A DNA stretch of 27,360 bases from a virus: positions 1 through 27,360 of IMG/VR virus record IMGVR_UViG_3300031774_000116. The stretch is one strand, 5' to 3'. The notes beneath the pieces are model-generated. The model searched no databases and was not told the DNA's origin. It was given only the letters and a program-made list of their open reading frames with translations. This document shows, in pieces, positions 2,413 to 27,360 of the stretch (within the stretch, counting starts at the first letter, position 1; every line of letters starts with the position of its first letter). The translations under genes and the position numbers were made by a program.

Positions 2413-2632
2413 AGTTATAAGAAAAATCAGTATTGGCTCTGATTATAAAAATGATGCCATGCATTACGCTGTAGGTCAGCAAGTGTATGGCGGTCATACT
2501 ATCTCTCATATTTTAAATAATGAAGAAGAACAATCTTATAATATATTTATAAAAAAAGATGACGAGGTATTGCCATGGAAAAAATTTAATTCTCAAATGG
2601 CTATATCTGTTGAATATGATCTAGAATATTAA
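2402..2632 (+). CDS. Hypothetical 76-aa protein, GTG start
   Basis: The frame opens with GTG at 2402, inside the 3' end of the previous gene (11-base overlap), and ends at TAA 2630-2632, which shares one base with the next ATG. It begins SSKVIRKISIGSDYKNDAMH, then YAVGQQVYGGHTISHIL. 'ISIG.DYK..MHY.VGQ' is a motif I recall from uncharacterised marine phage proteins. Alternating strands and two charged loops suggest a small beta fold. No better in-frame ATG precedes the conserved-looking motif, which is why the GTG is chosen. Confidence 0.7.
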   Translation: MSSKVIRKISIGSDYKNDAMHYAVGQQVYGGHTISHILNNEEEQSYNIFIKKDDEVLPWKKFNSQMAISVEYDLEY

Positions 2633-3222
2633 TGAATAGTTTATATCAATTTATTATAAAACCTATAGGTGAAAGATATAAAAATAAAATTAATATTGAA
2701 AATAAAGAATTAATCATAAATTCTAGTATATCTAATCATAAATTTATAAATAGAGAAGCAGAAGTTGTGTCTGTTCCACTTGTATATAAAACATCTATAA
2801 ATAAAGGAGATAAAGTTATAGTTCATCATAATTTATTTAGAAGATATTATAATATGAAAGGTAAGTCTGTAAATAGTAGTAAATATTTTAAAGATGATTT
2901 ATACTTTGCAATTCCTTCTCAAGTTTATATGTATTATAGAAACAATACATGGAATACTAATGAAAATTATTGTTTTGTAAAACCGGTATCAGAAGATGAA
3001 AAAATTATAAAGAATACTGGTATACTAAAATATGGTAATAGTTCACTAGAAGTGCTTAATATCAATCCAGGTGATGTTATTGGATTTAATCCATTAAGAG
3101 AATTTGAATTTATAATTGATAATGAGCTTTTATATTGTATGGAATCAAATGATATTGTAATTAAATATGAACACAAAGCAAACCAAAAAGAGTATAATCC
3201 AAGCTGGGCAAAAAGCTGTTGA
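2632..3222 (+). CDS. Tandem GroES-like co-chaperonin candidate
   Basis: This 196-aa protein looks like two GroES-type beta-barrels in one chain. Repeat 1 (about 6-104) opens with FIIKPIGERY, the position of the 'IRPLxDR' strand of GroES, followed by REAEVVSVP, KGDKVIVHHN and PSQVYMYYR. Repeat 2 (about 112-182) opens with CFVKPV and continues TGILKYGN, GDVIGFN, IDNELLYCM, ESNDIVIKYE. The last part matches the order of the GroES C-terminal half (GDIVIFN, IDNEEVLIM, SESDILAIVE). GroES-like phage proteins such as T4 gp31 cap host GroEL while capsid protein folds, so a head-folding role fits its place just before terminase and capsid genes. Repeat 2 lacks room for a normal mobile loop. The assignment is from visual comparison only. 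The start shares a base with the upstream stop. Confidence 0.6.
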   Translation: MNSLYQFIIKPIGERYKNKINIENKELIINSSISNHKFINREAEVVSVPLVYKTSINKGDKVIVHHNLFRRYYNMKGKSVNSSKYFKDDLYFAIPSQVYMYYRNNTWNTNENYCFVKPVSEDEKIIKNTGILKYGNSSLEVLNINPGDVIGFNPLREFEFIIDNELLYCMESNDIVIKYEHKANQKEYNPSWAKSC

Positions 3223-9417: not shown

Positions 9418-10869
9418 ATGGGAATTTTAACTCCACAATTTGGCTCAATAGTTCCTGCTCCTAATCAGCAGCTATTAGCCAGTAATTACCTATCTTTTAC
9501 AGATGGGACAAGTGATTTTGCTCAGCAATATCTACCAGAAATATATGAACAAGAAGTAGAGAGATATGGAAATAGAACTCTATCTGGTTTCTTACGTATG
9601 GTAGGTGCTGAAATGCCTCTGACTTCAGATCAAGTTGTTTGGTCAGAGCAAAATAGATTACATATAGCATATGACAACTGTGTTAACGATCAAGCTAATC
9701 CATCCACTATTACTGTTCCTGCTGCAACAGCTCCTGGTGTTACAAGAAATGTAGTATCTCCAGGTCAAACTATTGTAGTTTTAGACGATAGTGGCAATGA
9801 AGCAAAATGTGTTGTAACAGCTTCTAATACCGCTACTGGTGTTATAACTGTTGCTCCTTATTTAAGTACAGATTTAAGCGGTTTAGGTACTTCAGTAAAA
9901 ATATTTGTTTATGGTTCAGAATTTGTTAAAGGCGCATCCACATCTAATGCAGGTGCTGGAGCTTTAGCTTTAAATAATACTGTACAACCACAAATTACTA
10001 TTACTCCAGCTTTTCAACAATATAATAACTCACCAGTTATTATCAGAAATGTTTATACAATAAACGGATCAGATATGGCTCAAATAGGTTGGGTTGAAGT
10101 TGCTACAGAAGATGGAACTACTGGTTATCTATGGTACTTAAAAGCGGAATCTGAAACTAGATTACGATTTGAAGATTACCTAGAAATGGTATGTGTTGAA
10201 GGTGAGATCGCTGTGGCGGCTGCTGGAAATAATGCTGCTGCTTCAGGGTTTAAAGGTACTGAAGGTCTTTTCGCCGCTATCTCATCAAGAGGTAACGTAG
10301 AAGTTGGATTTGCTGGCGCAGCTGGTATAGATGACTTTGATGAAATACTTAAAAACCTAGATACTCAAGGTGCTATTGAAGAAAATATGCTGTTCTTACA
10401 AAGATCAACTGCATTAGAATTTGATAACATGCTTGCTAATGTATCTTATGGTGCTAACGGTGGTACAGCTTATGGATTATTTGAAAACTCAGAAGAAATG
10501 GCTTTAAATCTTGGATTTAGTGGTTTCAGAAGAGGTTCTTATGACTTCTATAAAACTGACTGGAAATACTTAAATGATGCTTCTACAAGAGGAGCAATTG
10601 CAGGTACTCAATCAATCGAAGGTGTTTTAATACCAGCAGGTACTTCAACAGTTTACGATCAAATTTTAGGTACTAATATAAGAAGACCATTTTTACACGT
10701 ACGTTATAGAGCTTCTCAAACAGAAGACAGACGTATGAAGTCTTGGTTAACTGGATCAGCTGGAGGTGCTTACACTTCTAATCTTGATGCAATGGAAGTA
10801 AACTTCCTTTCAGAAAGATGTCTTGTAACTCAAGCTGCAAATAACTTTGTATTATTCAAAGGTATTTAA
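9418..10869 (+). CDS. Major capsid protein
   Basis: This 483-aa protein follows the scaffold and is closed by a strong terminator, as expected for the most abundant virion protein. The N-terminal region has FAQQYLPEIYEQEVERYGNR, a long helix like the capsid spine-helix lead-in. A Thr/Val/Ala-rich beta segment (about 95-200) could be an inserted surface domain. The middle has an acidic helix (ETRLRFEDYLEMVCVEGEIA), and the C-terminal half is well ordered with many aromatic and Gly residues (GFSGFRRGSYDFYKTDW, about 373-389). HK97-like folding is inferred from context; no family is matched by a short signature. The leader AAATTAATAAATAAATT before ATG is the strongest of the A/T type here. It may be the client of the GroES-like protein encoded upstream. 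Confidence 0.85.
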   Translation: MGILTPQFGSIVPAPNQQLLASNYLSFTDGTSDFAQQYLPEIYEQEVERYGNRTLSGFLRMVGAEMPLTSDQVVWSEQNRLHIAYDNCVNDQANPSTITVPAATAPGVTRNVVSPGQTIVVLDDSGNEAKCVVTASNTATGVITVAPYLSTDLSGLGTSVKIFVYGSEFVKGASTSNAGAGALALNNTVQPQITITPAFQQYNNSPVIIRNVYTINGSDMAQIGWVEVATEDGTTGYLWYLKAESETRLRFEDYLEMVCVEGEIAVAAAGNNAAASGFKGTEGLFAAISSRGNVEVGFAGAAGIDDFDEILKNLDTQGAIEENMLFLQRSTALEFDNMLANVSYGANGGTAYGLFENSEEMALNLGFSGFRRGSYDFYKTDWKYLNDASTRGAIAGTQSIEGVLIPAGTSTVYDQILGTNIRRPFLHVRYRASQTEDRRMKSWLTGSAGGAYTSNLDAMEVNFLSERCLVTQAANNFVLFKGI

Positions 10870-13838: not shown

Positions 13839-16800
13839 ATGGCAGAAGCTAAAAATTCTTTTATTAAGTCCAAAATGAATAAAGACCTAGATGCTAGGTT
13901 ATTACCAAATGGTGAGTATCGTGAAGGAATTAATATACAAGTAAGTAAATCCGAAGGAGCTGATGTAGGCGCTTTAGAAAATGTATTAGGTAACATAGAG
14001 CTTGTTGATTTAAAAACATTAAGTGGTTGTAATTGTAATCTTACTACTATTGGTTTATATACTGATGAAGTTAATAATAATATTTATATATTTTTAACTG
14101 ATTATGATGAAAGATTAGCTCCTGGTTATAATACACAACTTTTAAATTATTCTTCTAGTGCTAATAATTATATTTATGTACACAATACTTCAAATAAAGA
14201 AACTGATTTATTACTTACTGGTGCATTTTTAAACTTTTCTACCACACATCCTATATTATCTGTAAATTTATTAGAAGGAATATTATTTTGGACAGATAAT
14301 AGGAATCAACCTCGTAGAATAAATATTGATAGAGCTAAAACTCTAAATTACTATTCAAATGAAGATCAAATATCAGTAGCTACTTACGCGCCTTTTCAAG
14401 CTATTGAACTATATCAACAACGCGCTGCAGAATATTGGCCAAATGGTGGTTCGGCAATAACTACTGGAACTGCAACTGCAGGACAAAATAAAATTTTATT
14501 AAGCGCAGATAATAGATTAGGTTTAGCTAACGAACTTGATGTAGGAAAAACTTTAGTAGGAGCTTTAATTACATCAGATGTTACTGGTGCTATACCTAAT
14601 AATACCGCTTATTGTTGTTATTCTAATGGTAACCAAATAGAATTAATAGATAGAAGTGCGTTACCAGGAGCAGAAACACCAGTAAATTTATTACTAGATT
14701 TACCTCCAGGATCAAAAATTTATTTCAATCAAAACTTAAATCCTATAACAGGGCCTACCGCAGGAACTGGTTTAGGTACTGACAATTGGGTTACAAGTAT
14801 GGAGGATGCTAGTTCTCCTATGAATCCAGGTGGTACATATAATGCTGGATATCCAGGTCTTACAACAAATCCAAATTATAACCCAAAATTTAATGGAGAT
14901 CCTGATTTCTTAGAAGATAAATTTGTAAGATTTAGTTATAGATTTAAGTTTGAAGATGGAAATTATTCTTTAATGGCTCCATTTACTCAAGCAACTTTTA
15001 TACCTAAACAAGATGGTTATTTTATAGGAGCTACAACTCCAGTAGGTATGACAACAGATGAACAAGCTACGTATAGAAGTACCGTAGTAGGTTTTATGGA
15101 AAATAAAGTAAATAATATATTTTTACAAATACCTTTACCTTTAGACAAAGATAATAATGGTATTGCTGCTAACGCTTTGTTTAGCGCAATGCAAGTAGAT
15201 GAAATTGAAATTTTATATAAAGAATCAGATGCTCTAGCTATTCAAGTTGTAGATACAATTCCAAGGGTTGGAACAAATGGATATGAAAATTTTGGAACAG
15301 ATACTGTTATAGAATACAACTACCAAGGAGATAAACCTTATAAAACTTTACCAGATAGCGAAATAACTCGTGTATATGATAAAGCACCAGTTAGAGCCCA
15401 TGGTCAAGAAATTATTAGTAATAGATTAGTTTATAGTAATTTTCAAAATAAACACACTCCACCTGAAACGTTAGATTATAATGTAGGTATAGGAGATAAA
15501 TATGATGTGTTTGTTGCTGATGATCCTACAGTTCCACGCCCTATCGAAAGAACTGTATCTAGGGAATATCCTATGCATACTGTTAAGCAAAATAGAAATT
15601 ATCAAGTAGGAGTTGTTTTATCTGATAGATATGGCAGAAGTTCTACTACTATTTTGTCATCAGTAAACACGCAAGCTCTTGATGGAGAACTAACATTGTT
15701 AGGAGACACTATTTATTTTCCTTATAATAACATTTCTAGCACTACACCTTCTGAGAATTTAATACAAAAATGGCCAGGAGATTCTATAAAAGTATTATTT
15801 AACACTCCAGTTGAAGAAAATGTGCCACATAATTTAAGTACAGGATGGCCAGGTTTATATAATGGAGATCCAACATCTGATGATTACAACCCATTAGGAT
15901 GGTATTCTTATAAAATTGTTGTTAAACAAACTGAACAGGAATATTATAATGTGTATCTACCTAGTATTATGAATTTTTATCCTAACCTTACTGCTGCACA
16001 ACAATCAACTGATGCTCCTGATCCTGTAAATACAGTTTCTTTTACTACTTTATTAAATGATAATATAAATAAAGTACCTAGAGATTTAACTGAAGTAGGA
16101 CCTGAACAAAAACAATTTAGAAGTTCTGTACAATTATATGGAAGAATTGCTCCTCATGCTAACGCTACGCCTACTTATAATTATCAATTTAATCCTGTAG
16201 ACGCCGCAACAAGAATAGCTATTTCTGATACAGTATCTACTATTGCAGATCAAAATTATCTTTTTGATAATACTAGTAATGTAAAATATGGTTCAATATA
16301 TCAAACTGTATCAAATCCTTCTTTAGCTCGTATCTCTATCACTTCAAACCCTATAGGGACAGCAGCTAAAACAGCTGTAACTGATGCTCAAACATCATGG
16401 TTAAGCGTTTATGAAACTCAACCTGTAGAATCAAGATTAGATATTTATTGGGAAACTTCATCTAGTGGAACTATAGCAGAATTAAATGAAGCTATAAAAA
16501 CAGGTAGTTCAGCTATTAAAAATTTTACAACAGACCAAGATATGGCTGCGGCTCCTAATACGTGGACATTTAATTTAGCTGAAGATATAACACCAGGTGA
16601 ATCCCCTACAGCAACGTATTCTAATGGAGTATACACATCTAAACCATTTTTTCCTTATGTTCAAGATGCCTCAGGTATAAAATTAATGGTAATAAATAGT
16701 AACATTGACACAACATCAGGTTTTTGGGTAACAGATGGAGAAAATCAAGATGTAACAGAAAAATTTGAATTAATTCGAACTGCAGGTAATGGGGTTAATA

Positions 16801-19199
16801 CTCCTGATACTTATATTCTTCAAATATCTAGTGGAACATATTTTTATTATAATACAAATTCTCCAGTAAAAGATTCTTTTACATTTAATTTTGACGTACA
16901 AAACAATGATAGTGGTTCACAGCAAGGTATAGTTACTAAAATTGCTATAACTGAAAAGTTATTTAATGTAAAACCTGAAATAACTTGCCCAAGTGAAGGT
17001 ATTGTAGTAGAACCTGGTACTAGTCCTTTATATACTTTTGAAGGGGTAAATGGAAGCGCTTGGAATGAACAAAACCAAAATGATTTAACTTGGAGGATAA
17101 TATCTCAAGATCCTATAGGAAATGGTGTTCCTGAATTAGTTATAAATGATAATGGAGAAGTTACTGATCCTACTGATACATTAAATGTACCAGTAAATTT
17201 AGAAATAGGTCTTACAGATGCTGGTACTAATGAAACCACTATAGGTGGTGTTGCTGAAGGAACTTGTGCTCCAGAAGTAAGTGGAAATACAGGTTATGAA
17301 ACTCTTCCATTAAATAGCACGTTTGGAAGTACTAAAAACATGTGTATTAATCAAGCGGCTGAATCCTCTGGATATTATTGGGCTGCTCCTACTCCTGATC
17401 CTGTAGAAAGCACACCTTTACCTCCTATTAATAGAGAAGTTGTAAGTGGTTTAGGATTAGGTACAAGTTTACCTAGTTATGCAACTAGTGCTGCAGCTGA
17501 TGGGTGGCAATGGAATAATTCAAATAGAAATGCACAAGTTGAAATGAATGCTACAAATTCTGGTTTAGGAACAGTAGTAAGTTCAGGACGAAGTGATTGT
17601 GTTACCAATGTTATTCCTGTTCCTGAAGGAATTACAAACGGTAGTGCTTATATAATAGTAGATTTTGAATTAGGGAATTATGGTTCAGCACCTAATGATA
17701 GACCAGGTGTTATTTGGCCAACTTATTTACAGTACAGAGAAAATAGTAATGCAACATGGATGACCGCTAAAGATGTAGAGGGTAATGATATAAAATTTGG
17801 AGGTGCACAAGCTGATGCTTATTATAAAGATAGTGTAGGAAGTGGAGTAACAATTGGAGGTTCACAATTTATTGGTGGTTCAGCATTTTATACTACTGGT
17901 GTTAAAGATAAATTAAGTAATGCAATTACTGATGAAGGTAGTGGTGCAGACCCTGCTACAGCTGATTGTTTTGAATCATGGATGGATTCAAGAGAAACTC
18001 AAGTAGATCCTTTATTAAACACTTTAGGTAGAAAATTATTTGTTGTAGGTAGAAATCAAGCTTATAGAGATCCAGGAGGTACTGCTCCTACCGATGCTCC
18101 AGATAGATTTGGAGAATATAGATTAATTACTCGTTATCCTTATGGTACTAATATTTCACCTACTACTTCATCATCGGTAACTAATCCTAAAATACCAACA
18201 TTAACACCATTTAAAACTCCGCCATTTCCATATGATAATTATACAACAGCTCAACAAAATCAAAGAGTATGGTTAAGTTTTGGAGATTTTTATAATCCAA
18301 GTCAATTAGTATCTTTTTATAGTAATGGTTCTGGAAGTGATTCAGCAGCTCCTGCGTCTTTTGCTTATAGAGTAACTGCAGCATGTGATGATAGAACTAG
18401 CGCAGCTGGTGCATCTATAGATCAAGTTGTTTATGCAAGAGAATGGGGTTTTAAATATGTGTCTCAATTTTATACTGATCCTCAATTAACTAGTGGTTGG
18501 TCTCCAGGGGCTACAAATAAATGGTTTGGTTATACAGCTGTTTCTGATACATCATTAAATACAAAATGGGGAAATGAAAATAGTTGTACTAGAGACGGTG
18601 CTCCTTTGTGGACTTGTCCTACTTGTCCTGCTCCTGATTATGTTATTGGTACGATGATGACTCAGAAAAATATGAGATGGACTGCTCAATTTGATCAAAT
18701 GGGTAAAAAAATTATTCGTACTGCTGAACCATGTGTAGCTAATTTAGATCCAGCTACTGGAGGTAATAATAACCAATGTAGTTCTCCTGCCGCAGCTTAT
18801 CGATTTGGTGTAATGCAGGTATATGCTCCAGGTAATAATAAAATAGAATTTTTACAAACTTTAGATGCATTAACCATGTCCTCTACTTGTAATATATATA
18901 CATTATTTCAAAATGTAACAAATAGCAAAGGTGCTGAAGGTTCTCCGGCAGCTGTTGTTGGGGTTAGTGAAATAACAGTAAGATCTCCTAATGCTTCTAA
19001 TTGTTATGAAAAAATTGGATCTGTAAGTTTTGGTGCAGGATCTAGAGCAACATATCAGACCGTTAATTTAGGTGGATATAGTGGAACCTATGTAACACTA
19101 ACTATAGATGGAGCTACTTCAGCTTTAGATGCTTTTCAAAATGGAACAGCAAATGGGGGACAAAATTGGTATTTACAAGGAGTTCCTGCTTGTCCTTAA
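13839..19199 (+). CDS. Giant tail nozzle/stabilisation-type protein with Ig-like and Cys-rich regions
   Basis: This 1786-aa protein is the largest complete gene. It starts with SFIKSKMNKDLDARLLPNGE then YREGINIQVSKSEGADVGAL, a motif typical of phage tail nozzle or stabilisation proteins (T7 gp12 / P22 gp10 role). At about 144-162 it has ILFWTDNRNQPRRINIDRA, a YWTD-like propeller blade. Residues about 1045-1145 (CPSEGIVVEPGTSPLYTFEG and on) resemble an Ig- or cadherin-like domain. Around 1580-1605 is a cysteine cluster including CPTC. The C-terminal half is Gly/Ser/Asn-rich and probably lies outermost. At over twice the length of T7 gp12, it probably fuses the nozzle with receptor-side domains. 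No enzyme motif was seen. Assignment of individual domains is inference. Confidence 0.7.
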   Translation: MAEAKNSFIKSKMNKDLDARLLPNGEYREGINIQVSKSEGADVGALENVLGNIELVDLKTLSGCNCNLTTIGLYTDEVNNNIYIFLTDYDERLAPGYNTQLLNYSSSANNYIYVHNTSNKETDLLLTGAFLNFSTTHPILSVNLLEGILFWTDNRNQPRRINIDRAKTLNYYSNEDQISVATYAPFQAIELYQQRAAEYWPNGGSAITTGTATAGQNKILLSADNRLGLANELDVGKTLVGALITSDVTGAIPNNTAYCCYSNGNQIELIDRSALPGAETPVNLLLDLPPGSKIYFNQNLNPITGPTAGTGLGTDNWVTSMEDASSPMNPGGTYNAGYPGLTTNPNYNPKFNGDPDFLEDKFVRFSYRFKFEDGNYSLMAPFTQATFIPKQDGYFIGATTPVGMTTDEQATYRSTVVGFMENKVNNIFLQIPLPLDKDNNGIAANALFSAMQVDEIEILYKESDALAIQVVDTIPRVGTNGYENFGTDTVIEYNYQGDKPYKTLPDSEITRVYDKAPVRAHGQEIISNRLVYSNFQNKHTPPETLDYNVGIGDKYDVFVADDPTVPRPIERTVSREYPMHTVKQNRNYQVGVVLSDRYGRSSTTILSSVNTQALDGELTLLGDTIYFPYNNISSTTPSENLIQKWPGDSIKVLFNTPVEENVPHNLSTGWPGLYNGDPTSDDYNPLGWYSYKIVVKQTEQEYYNVYLPSIMNFYPNLTAAQQSTDAPDPVNTVSFTTLLNDNINKVPRDLTEVGPEQKQFRSSVQLYGRIAPHANATPTYNYQFNPVDAATRIAISDTVSTIADQNYLFDNTSNVKYGSIYQTVSNPSLARISITSNPIGTAAKTAVTDAQTSWLSVYETQPVESRLDIYWETSSSGTIAELNEAIKTGSSAIKNFTTDQDMAAAPNTWTFNLAEDITPGESPTATYSNGVYTSKPFFPYVQDASGIKLMVINSNIDTTSGFWVTDGENQDVTEKFELIRTAGNGVNTPDTYILQISSGTYFYYNTNSPVKDSFTFNFDVQNNDSGSQQGIVTKIAITEKLFNVKPEITCPSEGIVVEPGTSPLYTFEGVNGSAWNEQNQNDLTWRIISQDPIGNGVPELVINDNGEVTDPTDTLNVPVNLEIGLTDAGTNETTIGGVAEGTCAPEVSGNTGYETLPLNSTFGSTKNMCINQAAESSGYYWAAPTPDPVESTPLPPINREVVSGLGLGTSLPSYATSAAADGWQWNNSNRNAQVEMNATNSGLGTVVSSGRSDCVTNVIPVPEGITNGSAYIIVDFELGNYGSAPNDRPGVIWPTYLQYRENSNATWMTAKDVEGNDIKFGGAQADAYYKDSVGSGVTIGGSQFIGGSAFYTTGVKDKLSNAITDEGSGADPATADCFESWMDSRETQVDPLLNTLGRKLFVVGRNQAYRDPGGTAPTDAPDRFGEYRLITRYPYGTNISPTTSSSVTNPKIPTLTPFKTPPFPYDNYTTAQQNQRVWLSFGDFYNPSQLVSFYSNGSGSDSAAPASFAYRVTAACDDRTSAAGASIDQVVYAREWGFKYVSQFYTDPQLTSGWSPGATNKWFGYTAVSDTSLNTKWGNENSCTRDGAPLWTCPTCPAPDYVIGTMMTQKNMRWTAQFDQMGKKIIRTAEPCVANLDPATGGNNNQCSSPAAAYRFGVMQVYAPGNNKIEFLQTLDALTMSSTCNIYTLFQNVTNSKGAEGSPAAVVGVSEITVRSPNASNCYEKIGSVSFGAGSRATYQTVNLGGYSGTYVTLTIDGATSALDAFQNGTANGGQNWYLQGVPACP

Positions 19200-19236: not shown

Positions 19237-20718
19237 ATGGCTGCAACAGTAGAAGTAAAATTTTTTAATTCCTTCGTATTAAGAAAGACTTTAAATGATG
19301 GAAGTAATCCTGCCCCTGCAGAATGGAATGGTTCTAGAGGTGATTTAACCTATCCTGCTATAGCTACTAATCCTGATAACGAACAAGATTGGGCAGTAGA
19401 AGAAGCAAGAATTCGAGGAGGATATAATAATACTTATGTAGGTCAAGGAGTTAAAGCATATTTAGTTGAAGATAATCCTAAATCATCTGTAAGGATTAAT
19501 TCTATGATTTATTCAGGTATATTTAACGCTAGAACAGGTATTAATGATACTAATGTTTTTTCTGTAGGAGAAGATATAATTAAAAGTGTAGATCCAGCAA
19601 ACGGTAGTATACAAAAAATTTATGCTGAAGATACTAATTTAATAATATTTCAAGAGAAAAAAGTTAGTAGAGCACCTATTGATAAAGACATTATATATAC
19701 AGCCGAGGGATCTACCAATGTAACTACATCTAATACTGTTATAGGTACAGTTCAAGCCTACGTAGGAAATTTTGGAATTAGTAAAAATCCTGAAAGCTTT
19801 GCTGTGTATGGTAGAAGAAAATATTTTACCGATAAAGATAGAAATGCAGTAATGAGATTATCACAAGATGGTCTTACTGAAATATCAAACTATGGTATGA
19901 TTGATTTCTTTAGAGATCAATTTGGCACAATGGGCGAAGGTAAACTAACTGGTGGTTGGGATATATATAATAAACAATATGTTTTATCCATTCAACCAGA
20001 AAGTTCTTTAGTACCTTATAAAACATTATCTTTTGATGAAAACATACAAGGTTGGACAAGTTTATATACTTACAAACCAGGTATGATGTTAAGTTTAAAA
20101 AATAAATTTTATACTACTGGTCCATCAAGTACTGCTGCTACAGATAGTGCAAGTTTATATCAACATTATATTGCCACCCAACCAAGAGGTAATTTCTATG
20201 GTTTAAATAATGATTCTTCTATAGAGTTTATTTTTAACCCGGATGTTAGTCTTTCTAAAGTATTTAAAACAATTAACTATGAAGGTAGTAACGGATGGGA
20301 AGTTACAAGTTTTATATCTGATGCTACAGGTATAGGATCAGTGAACACTGATTTTGAAGGATATGCCACTACAAATACTAGTGATACTATTACTTCTATA
20401 TATAGTTATAACGAAGGAGCATATGATAATTATGGAAATCAATTTGCTAATTTAGATAATAATCCAATTACAGCTAATACTACAGCTTTAATACCTCCAA
20501 TAAATCATGCTGGTTTTGATAGAAAAGAGAATAAATATATGGCTAATTTAGTTAACAATAGTACAGCCGCACCAGGAGAAGTAATATTTGGTAACCAAAT
20601 GACAGGTATTAAAGGTTATTATGCAACAGTTAAAATATCTACTGATACATTAACCGATCCGGGAGGAATGAAGGAATTATTTGCCGCCTCATCGGATTAT
20701 GTCGAATCCGCATATTAA
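19237..20718 (+). CDS. Tail structural protein, second nozzle-type partner
   Basis: This 493-aa beta-rich protein follows the giant tail gene after a 37-base A/T gap. Repeated short units of strand-loop character (SVRINSMIYSGIFNARTGIN, KIYAEDTNLIIFQEKKVSRA, FAVYGRRKYFTDKDRNAVMR, GGWDIYNKQYVLSIQP) look like propeller blades and resemble the middle of podovirus nozzle proteins, where a 'D..RN.V.R.S.DG..EIS' unit recurs. The end (GYYATVKISTDT, then a short tail ending in SAY) looks like a closing beta strand. I infer that the nozzle function is split between this and the preceding protein. A receptor-binding or fibre-attachment role is the alternative. Confidence 0.65.
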   Translation: MAATVEVKFFNSFVLRKTLNDGSNPAPAEWNGSRGDLTYPAIATNPDNEQDWAVEEARIRGGYNNTYVGQGVKAYLVEDNPKSSVRINSMIYSGIFNARTGINDTNVFSVGEDIIKSVDPANGSIQKIYAEDTNLIIFQEKKVSRAPIDKDIIYTAEGSTNVTTSNTVIGTVQAYVGNFGISKNPESFAVYGRRKYFTDKDRNAVMRLSQDGLTEISNYGMIDFFRDQFGTMGEGKLTGGWDIYNKQYVLSIQPESSLVPYKTLSFDENIQGWTSLYTYKPGMMLSLKNKFYTTGPSSTAATDSASLYQHYIATQPRGNFYGLNNDSSIEFIFNPDVSLSKVFKTINYEGSNGWEVTSFISDATGIGSVNTDFEGYATTNTSDTITSIYSYNEGAYDNYGNQFANLDNNPITANTTALIPPINHAGFDRKENKYMANLVNNSTAAPGEVIFGNQMTGIKGYYATVKISTDTLTDPGGMKELFAASSDYVESAY

Positions 20719-21433: not shown

Positions 21434-21955
21434 ATGGAATCTACTGTTATAATACCGGAAAATACCGGTTTAGAAGTTTTAGAACATTTATCTTATCAAA
21501 GAGGGATTTTGTGGGAAAATATAGAAATTTTTTTGAATCAATTATCTAAAGTAGAAGGAGTTGCTATAGCTCGAACTAAAGAAATGGATACTATATATCC
21601 AGTAAAACATAATCTAGAAGATGGTTTATATACTAGAGAATTATTTATTCCCAAAGGCCATTTAGTAGTTAGTTATATTCATAAACAAAATCATCCTTCT
21701 TTTTTATTAAAAGGAGATATATCTATTTTGTTAGATAGCGGAGAAATACAACGATTAAAAGCCCCACAAAAAGTATTTACTAAAATAGGTACTCAAAGAG
21801 TGTGTTATACTCATGAAGATGTTACTTGGGTTTGTGTTTACAAAACTAGATGTAAAAAAATAAAAAGTATTGAAAAAGAAATATATACTTTAAATTATAA
21901 AGAATTACCAATGAAAATAATAAATAAACAATTAAAATCATGGCAGGAGCAGTAG
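21434..21955 (+). CDS. Cupin-fold-like protein
   Basis: This 173-aa protein has a central beta-rich region (about 55-140). It runs GLYTRELFIPKGHLVVSYIH, then FLLKGDISILLDSGEIQRLK, APQKVFTKIGTQRVC and YTHEDVTWVCVY. The alternating strands, the 'FLLKGDISILLDSGE' turn and His83, His87 and His127 in the expected places suggest a cupin barrel, although the classic HXH...E motif is degenerate. Similar cupin-like proteins occur in tailed phages, from memory, without a fixed function. The N-terminal 50 residues are helical and unmatched. The last 16 bases overlap the next gene. A metal-binding sugar- or peptide-recognition role would be speculation. Confidence 0.7.
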   Translation: MESTVIIPENTGLEVLEHLSYQRGILWENIEIFLNQLSKVEGVAIARTKEMDTIYPVKHNLEDGLYTRELFIPKGHLVVSYIHKQNHPSFLLKGDISILLDSGEIQRLKAPQKVFTKIGTQRVCYTHEDVTWVCVYKTRCKKIKSIEKEIYTLNYKELPMKIINKQLKSWQEQ

Positions 21956-22671
21956 CAGCAATAGCAGGAGGTGTTTTAGCAGTTGGTGGAACTTGGTTCG
22001 GTATGAATCGAGCCGCTAAACAAAAAAAGTTTGCAAAAAGAGATGCAAATAGATTAAAAGGACAAATAGCTAAAGCAGAAAGAGAACGTCCATCAATAGT
22101 TAATCCTTTTGAAGGTATAACTGATTTATCTACATTGGCTAGTGACCTTAGTGGTATGGCTAGTAACCCTACAATGAATTTAGCTGTAGCCACACAAGCC
22201 GCTGAAATGCAAGTGGAAGAAGCTGACATTGCTTTAGCTAATACTTTAGACGCTTTACAAGCTAGTGGTGCTTCCGCTGGAGGAGCTACCGCATTAGCTC
22301 AAATGGCTTTAAAAAGTAAACAAGGAGTAAGTGCTAGTATAGAACAACAAGAGGCTAGAAATCAAGAAATTTCTGAAAAATCTAGAATTCAAGGAGAACT
22401 AAGAATTCAAGATATACAAATGGGGGAAGCTAAAAGAATGCAAGATGTTCAAATGAGTCAAGCAGAAAAAGTACAAAAAGCAGAAGCTCAAGGAAAAGAG
22501 TTTATGTATCGAGAAGAAGATAATCGCAAAATGCAAGAATTAAATAGATTGTCTGCTCAATTATCGGGTCAAGAACAACGTAAAGTAGCAGCTACTCAAG
22601 CTAGCAACGCAGCATTAGCTGGTGGTATAGGGGCAGTAGGAAATATAGCGGGAAGTTTAATTGGTGCATAA
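21940..22671 (+). CDS. Internal virion protein, ejection-type (small member)
   Basis: This 243-aa protein starts with a Gly/Ala-rich hydrophobic segment (AGAVAAIAGGVLAVGGTWFG), followed by basic and then long helical regions rich in Ala, Gln and Glu (about 78-215), and ends with a second Gly/Ala hydrophobic segment (NAALAGGIGAVGNIAGSLIG). Hydrophobic ends around a helical coil resemble T7 gp14-like ejection proteins. It overlaps the cupin-like gene by 16 bases and leads into two larger genes, matching the 14-15-16 order of podovirus ejectosomes by size. No enzymatic motif is visible. Function rests on layout and composition only. Confidence 0.6.
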   Translation: MAGAVAAIAGGVLAVGGTWFGMNRAAKQKKFAKRDANRLKGQIAKAERERPSIVNPFEGITDLSTLASDLSGMASNPTMNLAVATQAAEMQVEEADIALANTLDALQASGASAGGATALAQMALKSKQGVSASIEQQEARNQEISEKSRIQGELRIQDIQMGEAKRMQDVQMSQAEKVQKAEAQGKEFMYREEDNRKMQELNRLSAQLSGQEQRKVAATQASNAALAGGIGAVGNIAGSLIGA

Positions 22672-22699: not shown

Positions 22700-24421
22700 A
22701 TGGGGGCATACGAAAATCCAGTACAAGCTATCGATACAAAATCAGGACTTATAATTGCTAATGCTATTGCAAATATAGGTAAACAAACTCAAAACGCTAT
22801 TGAAAAATATGCTGAAAATGAAAATGATATTTTTAAAAAAGCTACTGAAAAAGAATTTAAAAGACAAGAAGATGCTAATAAAAATGCAGAAAAACTATAT
22901 GCAAATATAGATAAAGCCAATGTTAAAAATCAAACATGGTATGATATGACTACTTTAGCCATAAACACTAAGTATGATTTAGAAACAAAACTTCAAAGTG
23001 ATGATAGTTTAAATGTGGAACAACGACAAGAACTAACTAATGCTATAGAATATCAAAAACAAAGTATTAGAATGATAATGAATTCTATAACAGATATAAA
23101 AGATTGGCAAGGAGCAGAAGGAGAACTTTTAACAGGACCTACAAATGTTGCCGGCGGAATATATACTGGAGATATGTCAGAAGGTAGTTCTGAATTTGAA
23201 AAAGGAGTAGGTAGAAATTTGTTTTTAAAACAAGCGTTAATGGGTATTGGTATTAAAGAGGATGGAAAGTTGGCTGGTAATCCTATATTTTTTATGAAAC
23301 AAATTGAAGATACTAATGGTAATAAAGTTCCACAATTACATGCTTATTTACCAGGAGAAGGACCCAGTAAATCTTTTAATGTATCTGAAGTTATTAATAA
23401 AGATTTAGCTTTTATAGAAAACATAGAACAAGATACTAAAGAAAATGGTGTTACAATAAAAGGTATAAACACTATTTGGAGAGATCTTGGAATACAAAAT
23501 AAAAATGGGGAAATTTTACCTGGATATTTTCAACGAGACGAACAAGGTGTACCAATAACAGAAAAAATAATTATTGGTAGAACTGATGAAAATCCTGAAG
23601 GTACAGGTACAGCGTTTATAAATTTAGTTGATGTTGAAAAAGTTATACAAGCTTCAAAAGAACAATTTAAAGGTAAGTTTGATGGTATGACATCTTTTAC
23701 TAATGATTACGGAGAATATGCTAGAATAAATTCAACTTATTTAAAATATGCCGATAAAGATGCAAAAGATTTAGCTACTGTAAAACCAGGTGTATATACT
23801 CTTACAGAAGAAGCTCAAAAAGATTTTACTGATGCTATGTTAAAATATTCTATGAACAAGTTTGTAAAAGGATATGAATTAATAGCTGCAACTGACAACA
23901 AAGATGGTACTGTTACTTATACTGATAGTGAAGGAAATGTAATAACACCTACAGTCCGTAATTCTTACGTAGATGATTTTGGATTTAAAAGAAATAAAGA
24001 GAAACCATCAGGATTTAAATTCAATAAAGCTCAAGAAGGTAAAATTAAAGACACAGTAGAACAATTTAAAAGTGGAAAAGGATATAATAAACTTATTGGA
24101 ACAAAAATAGAGGGTAAAACATTAAAAAAAGTTCTAAAAGGAGAAGGAGGTAAAGTAACTTTTACATATGATGATAACGATCCTTCTAACAAAACTATTG
24201 AAGAAAAAGATATTCCAGGTTATAAAGACGTTGTGCTAGATAAAGATCAATTGACACCTTTAGTAAAGGATTATCTTATAAAACAATACGGGATGGGAGC
24301 AAGTACGACTAGAACTAAAATGCAAGATAAAATTATAGAAGATATTTTAAACCAAGAAGTAGAAGAAGTAAACAAAGAAGAAAGTAGTACAGATAGAAAT
24401 AAACTATTAAATCCAAACTAA
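22700..24421 (+). CDS. Virion protein, ejection-type (middle member)
   Basis: This 573-aa charged protein has a helical N-terminal half: KSGLIIANAIANIGKQTQNA, then a long Lys/Glu/Asn coil to about residue 130. A mixed alpha/beta middle follows (about 140-320), and a Lys-rich C-terminal half contains GYKDVVLDKDQLTPLVKDY. It has no signal peptide or strong membrane helix. It sits between a small Gly/Ala-rich protein and a giant HEXXH protein, the position of T7 gp15 in an ejection set, but I see no direct sequence match. Its stop shares one base with the next ATG (TAATG at 24419-24423), so the two are co-translated. Confidence 0.6.
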   Translation: MGAYENPVQAIDTKSGLIIANAIANIGKQTQNAIEKYAENENDIFKKATEKEFKRQEDANKNAEKLYANIDKANVKNQTWYDMTTLAINTKYDLETKLQSDDSLNVEQRQELTNAIEYQKQSIRMIMNSITDIKDWQGAEGELLTGPTNVAGGIYTGDMSEGSSEFEKGVGRNLFLKQALMGIGIKEDGKLAGNPIFFMKQIEDTNGNKVPQLHAYLPGEGPSKSFNVSEVINKDLAFIENIEQDTKENGVTIKGINTIWRDLGIQNKNGEILPGYFQRDEQGVPITEKIIIGRTDENPEGTGTAFINLVDVEKVIQASKEQFKGKFDGMTSFTNDYGEYARINSTYLKYADKDAKDLATVKPGVYTLTEEAQKDFTDAMLKYSMNKFVKGYELIAATDNKDGTVTYTDSEGNVITPTVRNSYVDDFGFKRNKEKPSGFKFNKAQEGKIKDTVEQFKSGKGYNKLIGTKIEGKTLKKVLKGEGGKVTFTYDDNDPSNKTIEEKDIPGYKDVVLDKDQLTPLVKDYLIKQYGMGASTTRTKMQDKIIEDILNQEVEEVNKEESSTDRNKLLNPN

Positions 24422-27360
24422 TGTTTGAAATAGATCAAGAACAATTTACTCTTGAAGAACTTAAACAAGCTGCTAAAAAATTCAACATGGACTTTGTTAA
24501 GTACATGGAGAAGATGAAAGCTAAAGGTTTAAAAGAAGTTAAAAAATCTACTGATATCAATTCAGATGTTACTGGAGATAGTACCATTAAACCGCCGGTT
24601 ACAAGAACTAGTACTAGAACCGACGTTAGAAAAAGAGATTTAGAAAAAATAAAAGAAGAAAAAAATACATTTGAAAGTTCAGATTTTAATGATATTAGTT
24701 TTATTGATGATAAATATAAAAAGCCTAAAAAAAGTGACACATGGAGATCTTTTCAGCGCAAAATAAAAGAACTTAAGAAACAAAATGATCTTGAAGGGGT
24801 AAAATTAACTGACAATAGAGATTTAATGTCAGAGGAAGAATATAAAAATCAACAGAAAGAGTTAAACAATGAATTAACAAGAAATATAAATTCTTTACGA
24901 TCAACTATAGATATTAGTGATACGGACGATCAACTGTTAACTTATGACGACGCTTTAAATAATTTAATAAAAGATCCTTCGCAAGTAGATGGAGAGTGGA
25001 CAACTGATATAGAAGGAAATGAAGTTTTTGTACCTAAATATCATAATAGATATGATAGATTTTTAAAAGAAATTCCTAAAATATTTAATTACAATTATGA
25101 TCCTCACGAGGGAGATGAAAGACGTATAGATATAGAAGATAATATATTAGCTAAAGTTATAGATATAGCTACTGATAAGCAATTACAACAATTAGCTAAA
25201 AATAGAATGTCTTTAGAAAATAAAGAAGCATTATTAACTGAGGCTAGATTAACTGTAATTAAAGAAGAACAAACGTTGTTAGAAGATGAAATAACCTCTA
25301 TTACAGAAGAGTTAAGTTGGTTGTCAGGTGGAGATATGAAGATGGATAATTTAGATTCACCTAATAGAATTGAATCTTTCAACAAGTTAGTAGAAAAAAG
25401 AAATAAATTAGCGACTACTTTTCAACAACTTCAAGGTCAATATGGATTAGATTTAGCAGCAGGTATAATAAAAAACAATTTTAAAGGAACTGAAGAGTTA
25501 AAAAAATTTAATGAAAGATATAGTAGTCCGGGAGAAAAAGAAAGTTTAACTTTCGATCTTTTATCACGTTTTGAAAGTGGGGTGGTTAATACGGTTATGA
25601 AAATGAATCCTTTCACTCTTGGCTCTACAGCTGTAGGGATGTTAGGAAGTGAGATAACAAATCTTATTTCTGGTTCTGATGATTATAATATGTTTGATGA
25701 ATTTACAGACGTATTATATAATGTTGCAGATTTTAATTCATCTGGAAGAGGTAAACAGGAAAAATTTGAATGGGGTGGTGGACCGGAAACTTATGCGAGA
25801 TTAGCAATGGACATGTTACCTTTTACTTTAGGTATTATAGCTGAAGCAAAACGAGGTAACATTACAGGTTTAAAAAAAATAATAGGTAATACTATTGGTG
25901 GTAAAGCGGGAAGATTAAATGGATTATCCTCTAAATTAAAAAACCAAATATTAGTTGCTGACGCAGCTTTTAAAGTAACCGCTTTAGATAATTTAGAAGA
26001 AGCTAAAACTTTAGGATTAGAAGGTGGATCTGCTAAAGCATATGCTTTTATTAAGTCTTTAGGCACCGCAGTTACTTCAGCAAAAATTGGTATTGAAGGA
26101 AGGATTGCTGCTCCTATATTTACAAAAGCTACTTTAGCAACTTTTGCTAATACTTTAAAAGGCGCAGCTACAGTAGGTGCTATGAGAACTGCTACCACTA
26201 ATTTTTTGAAAACCACAGGAGGTGAATTATTACAAGAAGAAACAGAAGTAATAATAGACTTAGGTGTTAAATCGGCTTTTGCTTTAGCTTTACCTGGTTA
26301 TGAAAATTCTGTTCAACAACAAAAAGAACTTATAGCCGGTACTTTAATGTTGAGTGGAGGTTTTGGAGGAGCTCGAGCTATTACGGATTTTAAAATTAAC
26401 AAAAAACAATTATATGCTGACGTTATAAAACAAAGTAATGATTTATTAGAATCTTTCGATGTATTATTAAAAGCAACTAAAGATACAAAAAGTAAAGAGC
26501 AATTAAAAAAAGCTAAGCAGTTTACTATTGATATTATTCGTGCTGCTAAAATTTCTCCAGAAAACGTAACACCAGAACAATTAGAATTGTTAGTAGAGAA
26601 ACAAGAGTTATTACGTCAAAAAGAAAACACTGATTCAGCTTTCCACGTAGAATTAAACAACAAAATTAAAGAGATTGATGAAAAAATTAATCAAGGACAA
26701 GTTGTTAAAGGCAAAGAAAAAGTAGAACAAAAAATTATTAAAGGCGTAGAGAAGTATGGGGAAAAACTAAGTACATCAGTTGATAGATTAAGTCAACAAG
26801 AAGTAGATGATTTTATTGATAAATTAGATGATAAACAAAAAAAGAGATTTAAAAAATCAAAAGCTGGTGAACAATTAGGATTTTTTTATAAAAAAGAAGA
26901 TGGAACGAGAGGTTTTGTTATAAATACTGATGTGGCTGCAAGTGAAGGTAATATAACTACTGATGCTCATGAAATGGTACATGCTATTTTAGATGAGACT
27001 GTAGAAAATAATCCTGAAGCTGCAAAAAGTTTAGGTAAAGCTTTAACAGAAGAATTAGCTAAAATAGATTTTAACAATATAACAGATAGTGAATTTTCTA
27101 AAAGATTAAGTAGTTATTTAAAAGATGCTGATGATGGTAAAATATCTGAAGCTAATGCTTGGGAAGAGGCTTTAACTCTATTTTCTGAAGCAGCTTTAAC
27201 TGGAGATATAGTATATGATGAATCTGTATTATCTAAAATTAAAGATGTTATTAACAGAGTATTAAAAAATGTAGGTATTCAAAAAGAATTTAATACAGGT
27301 AGAGATGTATATAATTTTATAAAAGATTATAATAAAAGTTTATTAAAAGGAAAGGTTGAT
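24421..27360 (+). CDS. Giant virion/ejection protein with HEXXH domain, cut by window edge
   Basis: ATG 24421 overlaps the previous stop and the frame stays open for 980 codons to the last base. The N-terminal motif TLEELKQAAKKFNMDFVKYM then EKMKAKGLKEV resembles a start repeated in large Bacteroidota phage virion proteins. A charged helical region follows. A Gly/Ala-rich hydrophobic region (about 385-660) includes MNPFTLGSTAVGMLGSEITN, LAMDMLPFTLGIIAEA and GTLMLSGGFGGARA, suited to membrane insertion. A coiled coil precedes DAHEMVHAILDE, giving His850-Glu851-x-x-His854, with WEEALTLFSEA (Glu915/916) a plausible third zinc ligand. The whole fits a T7 gp16-like internal protein carrying a metallopeptidase instead of a lytic transglycosylase. 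The C-terminus is not visible. Confidence 0.75.
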   Translation, partial: MFEIDQEQFTLEELKQAAKKFNMDFVKYMEKMKAKGLKEVKKSTDINSDVTGDSTIKPPVTRTSTRTDVRKRDLEKIKEEKNTFESSDFNDISFIDDKYKKPKKSDTWRSFQRKIKELKKQNDLEGVKLTDNRDLMSEEEYKNQQKELNNELTRNINSLRSTIDISDTDDQLLTYDDALNNLIKDPSQVDGEWTTDIEGNEVFVPKYHNRYDRFLKEIPKIFNYNYDPHEGDERRIDIEDNILAKVIDIATDKQLQQLAKNRMSLENKEALLTEARLTVIKEEQTLLEDEITSITEELSWLSGGDMKMDNLDSPNRIESFNKLVEKRNKLATTFQQLQGQYGLDLAAGIIKNNFKGTEELKKFNERYSSPGEKESLTFDLLSRFESGVVNTVMKMNPFTLGSTAVGMLGSEITNLISGSDDYNMFDEFTDVLYNVADFNSSGRGKQEKFEWGGGPETYARLAMDMLPFTLGIIAEAKRGNITGLKKIIGNTIGGKAGRLNGLSSKLKNQILVADAAFKVTALDNLEEAKTLGLEGGSAKAYAFIKSLGTAVTSAKIGIEGRIAAPIFTKATLATFANTLKGAATVGAMRTATTNFLKTTGGELLQEETEVIIDLGVKSAFALALPGYENSVQQQKELIAGTLMLSGGFGGARAITDFKINKKQLYADVIKQSNDLLESFDVLLKATKDTKSKEQLKKAKQFTIDIIRAAKISPENVTPEQLELLVEKQELLRQKENTDSAFHVELNNKIKEIDEKINQGQVVKGKEKVEQKIIKGVEKYGEKLSTSVDRLSQQEVDDFIDKLDDKQKKRFKKSKAGEQLGFFYKKEDGTRGFVINTDVAASEGNITTDAHEMVHAILDETVENNPEAAKSLGKALTEELAKIDFNNITDSEFSKRLSSYLKDADDGKISEANAWEEALTLFSEAALTGDIVYDESVLSKIKDVINRVLKNVGIQKEFNTGRDVYNFIKDYNKSLLKGKVD

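Follow-up and report, generated by a model that had tools for sequence, protein, structure and literature searches.

This study identified a predicted zincin-like metallopeptidase domain in a giant protein of a short-tailed Bacteroidota phage, encoded by the last open reading frame of the window, which is an IMG/VR fragment of 27,360 bases analyzed here as a whole. Our preferred reading, to which we assign a probability of roughly 45%, is that of a giant ejection protein whose zincin works after ejection, with the giant itself as the likeliest substrate. The giant would be packaged in the head and, together with its gp14- and gp15-like partners, would be ejected into the cell ahead of the DNA. 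Zinc would be held by H850, H854, and E916, with E851 serving as the general base, and the zincin would most likely cut a polypeptide in the newly infected cell. A cut near the zincin would free the C-terminal modules from an envelope-anchored front. Self-release was favored because the zincin has a Gly/Ala membrane-type region on one side and the C-terminal modules on the other; in relatives, these modules are separate enzyme-like and helical units. The question of why zinc proteases are so frequent in injected phage giants was already raised in 2017, in the accessible text of PMC5512222, and our literature search found no experiment that settles the role.

Gene order and phage placement

The giant gene (24421-27360, + strand) starts with ATG and runs for 980 codons without a stop, reading past the contig end, which cuts its 3' end. 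Because complete relatives of the giant comprise 2056-3593 aa, the window shows only its front part, the N-terminal 980 aa. Genes for the terminase, portal, head protein, muzzle, a 243-aa protein, and a 573-aa protein lie upstream. The giant stands directly 3' of the last two, with the muzzle/nozzle and tail genes located earlier. The 243-aa gp14-like protein (21940-22671, + strand) carries hydrophobic Gly/Ala segments at both ends, with hydropathies of 1.63 and 1.45. The 573-aa gp15-like protein (22700-24421, + strand) was assigned by position, that is, by order and size; it yielded no meaningful family match in Pfam or PHROGs and was recovered at an E value of 1e-3 in one of the 80 relative loci described below. 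A gp14-like gene was found upstream in 54 of these 80 loci and a muzzle gene in 51, and the absences mean little because the loci have flanks of 6 kb. According to the available portion of PMC8954989, podovirus ejection operons run gp14-gp15-gp16. The original prediction had placed the giant at the gp16-type position, and its location after gp14-like and gp15-like genes, as in cultured flavophages and N4, agrees with that placement.

The muzzle/nozzle gene is present as two open reading frames that are 37 bases apart on the + strand. The N-terminal part (13839-19199) matched phrog_14478 from profile position 2, and the C-terminal part (19237-20718) matched phrog_14478 (E 1e-47) and Pfam crAss_MUZ_C (PF25729; E 9e-13). 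The same split occurs in Panino, and phi38:1 and Elemovirus have a single muzzle frame. A GroES-like co-chaperonin is encoded at 2632-3222, shortly before the terminase gene, and is also found in phi38:1, Panino, and Elemovirus.

We used the major virion (head) protein (9418-10869, + strand; phrog_13704, E 4e-88) to place the phage. It matched 85 phage records, the best at about 48%, comprising 68 from Flavobacterium, 15 from Cellulophaga, one from Maribacter, and one unnamed. The muzzle C-terminal domain is a Crassvirales feature; the head protein is not closest to Crassvirales, all 85 matched records being other phages. The same gene order was observed in the cultured or complete phages phi38:1 (Pervagoviridae), Panino, Elemovirus, and the Caudoviricetes genome ctfjg026. 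Elemovirus gp18 (HEIFH at 1543) and the unnamed ctfjg026 giant (HEFGH at 2500) resemble the window protein in genomic place and in HExxH, and both matched the zincin profile weakly (blastp E 0.007 for Elemovirus), whereas the remainder of each protein is barely alignable to the window family. At the corresponding place, phi38:1 gp101 and the large Panino protein have no HExxH, and the zincin is therefore common but not obligatory. Both phi38:1 gp101 and Elemovirus gp18 are annotated as 'structural protein'; by analogy with these cultured relatives, the giant is probably present in the virion and may be ejected from it.

No match for the window protein or its relative L009 was found among GenBank phages, and a plasmid search with the giant C-terminus was likewise negative. 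A search of genome contigs returned 20 matches; because all 20 are MAG contigs, we did not trust their host labels.

Motif, predicted fold, and conservation

HEMVH and WEEALTLFSEA, the two motifs on which the original prediction was built, are present as described, at residues 850-854 (26968-26982, + strand) and 914-924 of the 980-aa frame. From composition, 0.0023 HExxH motifs would be expected in a 980-aa protein with only 5 His. HEMVH would supply two Zn ligands and the catalytic Glu, and the E915-E916 pair is encoded at 27163-27168 (+ strand). Pfam returned no family for the giant at E values up to 1, PHROGs returned a chance-level match only (E 0.069), and PDB sequence searches returned nothing useful.

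The front of the protein contains a Gly/Ala-rich, weakly hydrophobic, putative membrane-contacting region at residues 398-655 (25612-26385, + strand), with the motif ELLQEETE near residues 602-609. The Gly/Ala segments had been described as membrane-insertion-like; the composition is real, with 26-30% G+A over residues 491-630, but the hydropathy peaks reach only 1.0-1.17 over 19 residues (398-416, 608-626, and 637-655), values that fall below the usual transmembrane cut-off. A helical coiled region (residues 689-782; 26485-26766, + strand; model helices 5-98) precedes the zincin-like domain (residues 785-976; 26773-27348, + strand), which was assigned from the model, structure alignment, and an hhalign comparison with domain C1 of N4.

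We modeled window residues 685-980 with AlphaFold2, using 64 rows that comprised the window and 63 of the 80 loci after near-identical ones had been removed. The model (pLDDT 83, pTM 0.73) places strands at model positions 101-106, 136-140, and 146-151, followed by helices at 163-177 and 226-243. The zincin fold anticipated around these residues is thus recovered as a prediction, with three strands first, then the helix containing HExxH, and further on a helix bearing E915/E916. Foldseek found no significant match in the PDB (best E 0.66), with lethal-factor and Certhrax chains at 2.9 or worse. With a slower structure aligner, anthrax lethal-factor and Certhrax zincin domains aligned to 154-178 model residues with Z 6.0-6.8 and 7-11% identity, a likeness in overall structural alignment that implies no functional link. 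The lethal-factor rows mostly align the N-terminal domain, and two (4xm6 and 4pkw) align the C-terminal part, 450-775, which we take to be the catalytic part. The other high rows, including two short helical ones that outranked the zincins (Z 7.0-7.1), mostly matched the coiled part over short helical stretches of about 50-80 residues; the lethal-factor and Certhrax rows are the long, non-coiled-coil alignments. These Z values are supportive rather than proof because, by the aligner's own note, values near 6.5 are common. A library of viral predicted structures yielded one significant match (E 1e-4), and several of its weaker rows bore names of large polyvalent, ART-PolyVal, MuF, or structural proteins, one of them from Tenacibaculum phage Gundel_1. 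Taken with the model, residues 785-976 would form a zincin-like metallopeptidase for which zinc binding and proteolysis are predicted.

Relatives were examined in two sets. The first was retrieved from viral contigs by using six peptide patterns, none containing HExxH, and comprised 80 loci. All 80 showed HExxH at the aligned place with a downstream Glu, and H850, E851, H854, E915, E916, and S922 were identical in 81 of 81 sequences, the window included. Because one retrieval pattern lay just behind the zincin domain, we built a second set that was picked solely by the C-terminus of L009; 30 records from 36 loci were used, 5 on contigs already in the first set and one 8-kb fragment being left out. 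The string YNFIKDYN behind the domain was rejected as a near-invariant motif, since its conservation was inflated by its use as a retrieval pattern and the exact string occurs in 0 of the 30 records.

The zincin profile matched 21 of the 30 C-terminally selected giants at an E value of 0.01, and the corresponding place reads HExxH in 26 and EExxH in 4. When the 111 sequences are pooled, H occupies position 850 in 107 and E in the remaining 4, and E851 and H854 are invariant. E916 is present in 110 (one row is gapped), including the 29 of the 30 C-terminally selected giants that align there, and E915 is present in 101; we consequently dropped E915 and regard E916 as the likely third Zn ligand. 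The expectation that the ligands would be conserved was accordingly borne out in the first set (81/81 for H850, H854, and E916) but not in the distant relatives with EExxH. The EExxH giants (L252, L255, L256, and L258) fall into two or more dissimilar zincin types (identity 43% and 53% within types, 23-29% between them) and have different C-termini.

Without catalysis, it would be difficult to account for the conservation of HExxH and the downstream Glu, and the conserved catalytic residues suggest an active protease in most members. Catalysis is not universal, given that 4 of the 30 C-terminally selected giants have EExxH. These four, spread over dissimilar zincin types, fit a fold retained for packaging or tail passage with dispensable catalysis, as does the N4 protein, whose HExxH region was reported as needed for encapsidation (PMC5512222, in the text available). 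We consider such a purely structural role unlikely, as the HExxH residues are kept in 26 of the 30 and 81 of the 81 sequences, and HExxH is present in 79 of 80 loci from N4-like contigs, with a fragment as the one exception.

Exchange of the protease-bearing front

The mosaic comparison covered 88 giants with both parts, 9 of 97 candidates having been dropped for a missing or short C-terminal match, and swap versus vertical descent was judged from pair identities. Sixty pairs had C-termini at least 85% identical (up to 97%). The zincins of these pairs were 20-34% identical in 24, more than 80% identical in 23, and between these values in 13, against a background of 26% (shuffled mean) or 34% (pairs with dissimilar C-termini). 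Identity profiles along the protein were computed for seven pairs. In six, identity was approximately 15-30% across most of residues 1-1500, somewhat higher in the first 100, and mostly 80-98% across the final 900 residues; G026/L012, one of the six, has an additional shared block at 1100-1400. A frameshift made the seventh pair, G028/G030, uninformative. In DNA, G025 and G035 are 88% identical in the head genes and 87% in the C-terminal block, and between these blocks gp14, gp15, and the front of the giant share only short patches. Together, these identities place the protease in the exchanged part, and the zincin-bearing front appears to have been swapped wholesale between otherwise similar phages.

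The apparent natural split of the G028 giant (1984 + 823 aa) was considered as evidence of cleavage and rejected, because it results from a frameshift in an A homopolymer. This homopolymer lies just before the HAD motif (L263, around 10790), and the frameshift would be an assembly error or slippage. The giant gene of G031 (L255) is also broken.

The exchange between close phages, the absence of the domain from some phages, and the EExxH variants would favor a role that is accessory, host-facing, or in part structural. One such role is that of an ejected effector protease, which as infection begins would cut proteins of the host such as a factor of its defence or envelope, its front cassette being exchanged to match hosts. 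The 24 pairs with zincins at or near background identity, the patchy G025/G035 front between similar blocks, and the accessory character implied by the phi38:1 and Panino proteins are all consistent with this role. The exchanged block, however, also carries the membrane region and gp14/gp15, and the protease may merely hitch-hike with envelope parts that are matched to the host; we hold the effector reading to be rather unlikely, though by no means negligible.

The C-terminal modules were examined in relatives. In L009, the modeled C-terminal part (pLDDT 73 overall) consists of a HAD domain followed by an all-helical region. The HAD domain (L009:8527-9240, outside the window) is closest to the T4 polynucleotide kinase 3'-phosphatase (Z 12.5 over 127 residues), and PHROGs reported a polynucleotide kinase in 5 of 18 relatives. 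The motif D-x-D-[DG]-T occurs in 21 of 42 slices, and the HAD part is for this reason a module too. L076 contains a P-loop motif, and a match to Zeta_toxin/AAA_33 models was obtained for one member. An ejected enzyme repairing nucleic-acid 3' ends would be a candidate anti-defence activity.

A broader picture, possible but tentative, is that this group of marine Bacteroidota phages carries the giant as a device of two parts. The C-terminal third would be constant and form the packaging and ejection base, and an exchangeable front two-thirds, containing the membrane region and the zincin and swapped along with gp14/gp15, would act as a host-matched 'warhead'. The recurrent EExxH forms would be inactivated or metal-retuned proteases in the same slot, and the T4 Pnkp-type phosphatase that is often present in the C-terminal third could mend nucleic acids cut by host defence. 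Near-identical giants with differing protease fronts, EExxH variants, and cultured relatives that either have or lack the domain are natural comparisons that would allow a direct test of the protease's role.

Comparison with T7, N4, and polyvalent proteins

Our literature search, mostly without full texts, found no paper describing this giant family. The giant is, similar to T7 gp16, the last and largest product of a gp14-gp15-gp16 type operon; its relatives differ from T7 gp16 in being 1.6 to 2.7 times longer and in carrying a zincin. The original prediction proposed that the metallopeptidase stands in for the usual transglycosylase, and a cell-wall peptidase of this kind would suit the gp16-type position. 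An N-terminal lytic transglycosylase, which is not universal in the gp16 type, had no Pfam match in the giant, and no transglycosylase family was found in the 18 window proteins scanned. Nevertheless, no result pointed to peptidoglycan and no similarity to peptidoglycan peptidases was found. The T7 hydrolase is, moreover, N-terminal (residues 1-156 in the accessible part of PMC8954989), whereas the zincin lies at residue 850. The replacement is unsupported because the closest precedents, the N4 virion RNA polymerase (vRNAP) and polyvalent proteins, read as protein processing or effector activity, and we consider a cell-wall role very improbable.

The available text of PMC12633501 describes N4 vRNAP gp50 as an ejection protein with an HExxH domain, C1 (2124-2375), followed by a mostly helical C2. 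The hhalign comparison of the window zincin with N4 C1 gave a probability of 88 (E 3e-6) and, on re-running, a probability of 86 with a score of 43.0, and none of 40 controls, in which columns were shuffled and the motif was kept, scored above 34.2; the alignment spans the sheet and the HExxH helix but not the Glu helix. Residues 594-654 aligned weakly with the N4 vRNAP N-terminal domain (probability 9, E 0.0035, 7 N4-type rows) and share the same E-rich motif, and a scan with the N4 N-terminal part found only N4 itself; an N-terminal kinship is a lead only. Equating the C-terminal domains of the giants with those of N4 vRNAP was rejected: both are mostly helical and look alike by eye, but the profile probability is 0.3. 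No N4 vRNAP chain was among the structure matches listed for either model, which excludes nothing. The giant thus resembles N4 gp50 in being a giant third ejection protein with a membrane-type N-terminal part, an HExxH domain, a large helical C-terminal part behind it, and the same gene order. It differs in that no RNA polymerase family was found by Pfam at an E value of 0.01 in 18 full-length relatives (the window gene being incomplete) and in that the C-terminal parts showed no relation by profile.

According to the accessible passages of PMC5512222, Iyer et al. (2017) described zincins as the commonest domain of phage polyvalent proteins, with diverse metallopeptidase clades, and proposed self-processing or effector roles. 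Their example of P1 DdrB, which has a C-terminal metallopeptidase and is processed before packaging, would be the model for processing before or during packaging here; N4 vRNAP, the closest functional analogue, is packaged unprocessed according to the same passages, and we judge such early processing improbable. Our preferred reading, self-release after ejection, would remain within the range of these proposals. The window domain shares with the polyvalent metallopeptidases a predicted three-stranded sheet, an HExxH helix, and a Glu on the following helix, and it is likewise contained in a giant multi-domain phage protein (incomplete in the window) next to virion genes. It differs in having no Pfam match at an E value of 1 or better, which concerns the models rather than the superfamily, and in its neighbors, which in relatives are a T4 Pnkp-type phosphatase-like module and a helical C-terminus. 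Because their structural description fits the domain, we assigned it to the polyvalent-protein metallopeptidases rather than to a new system.
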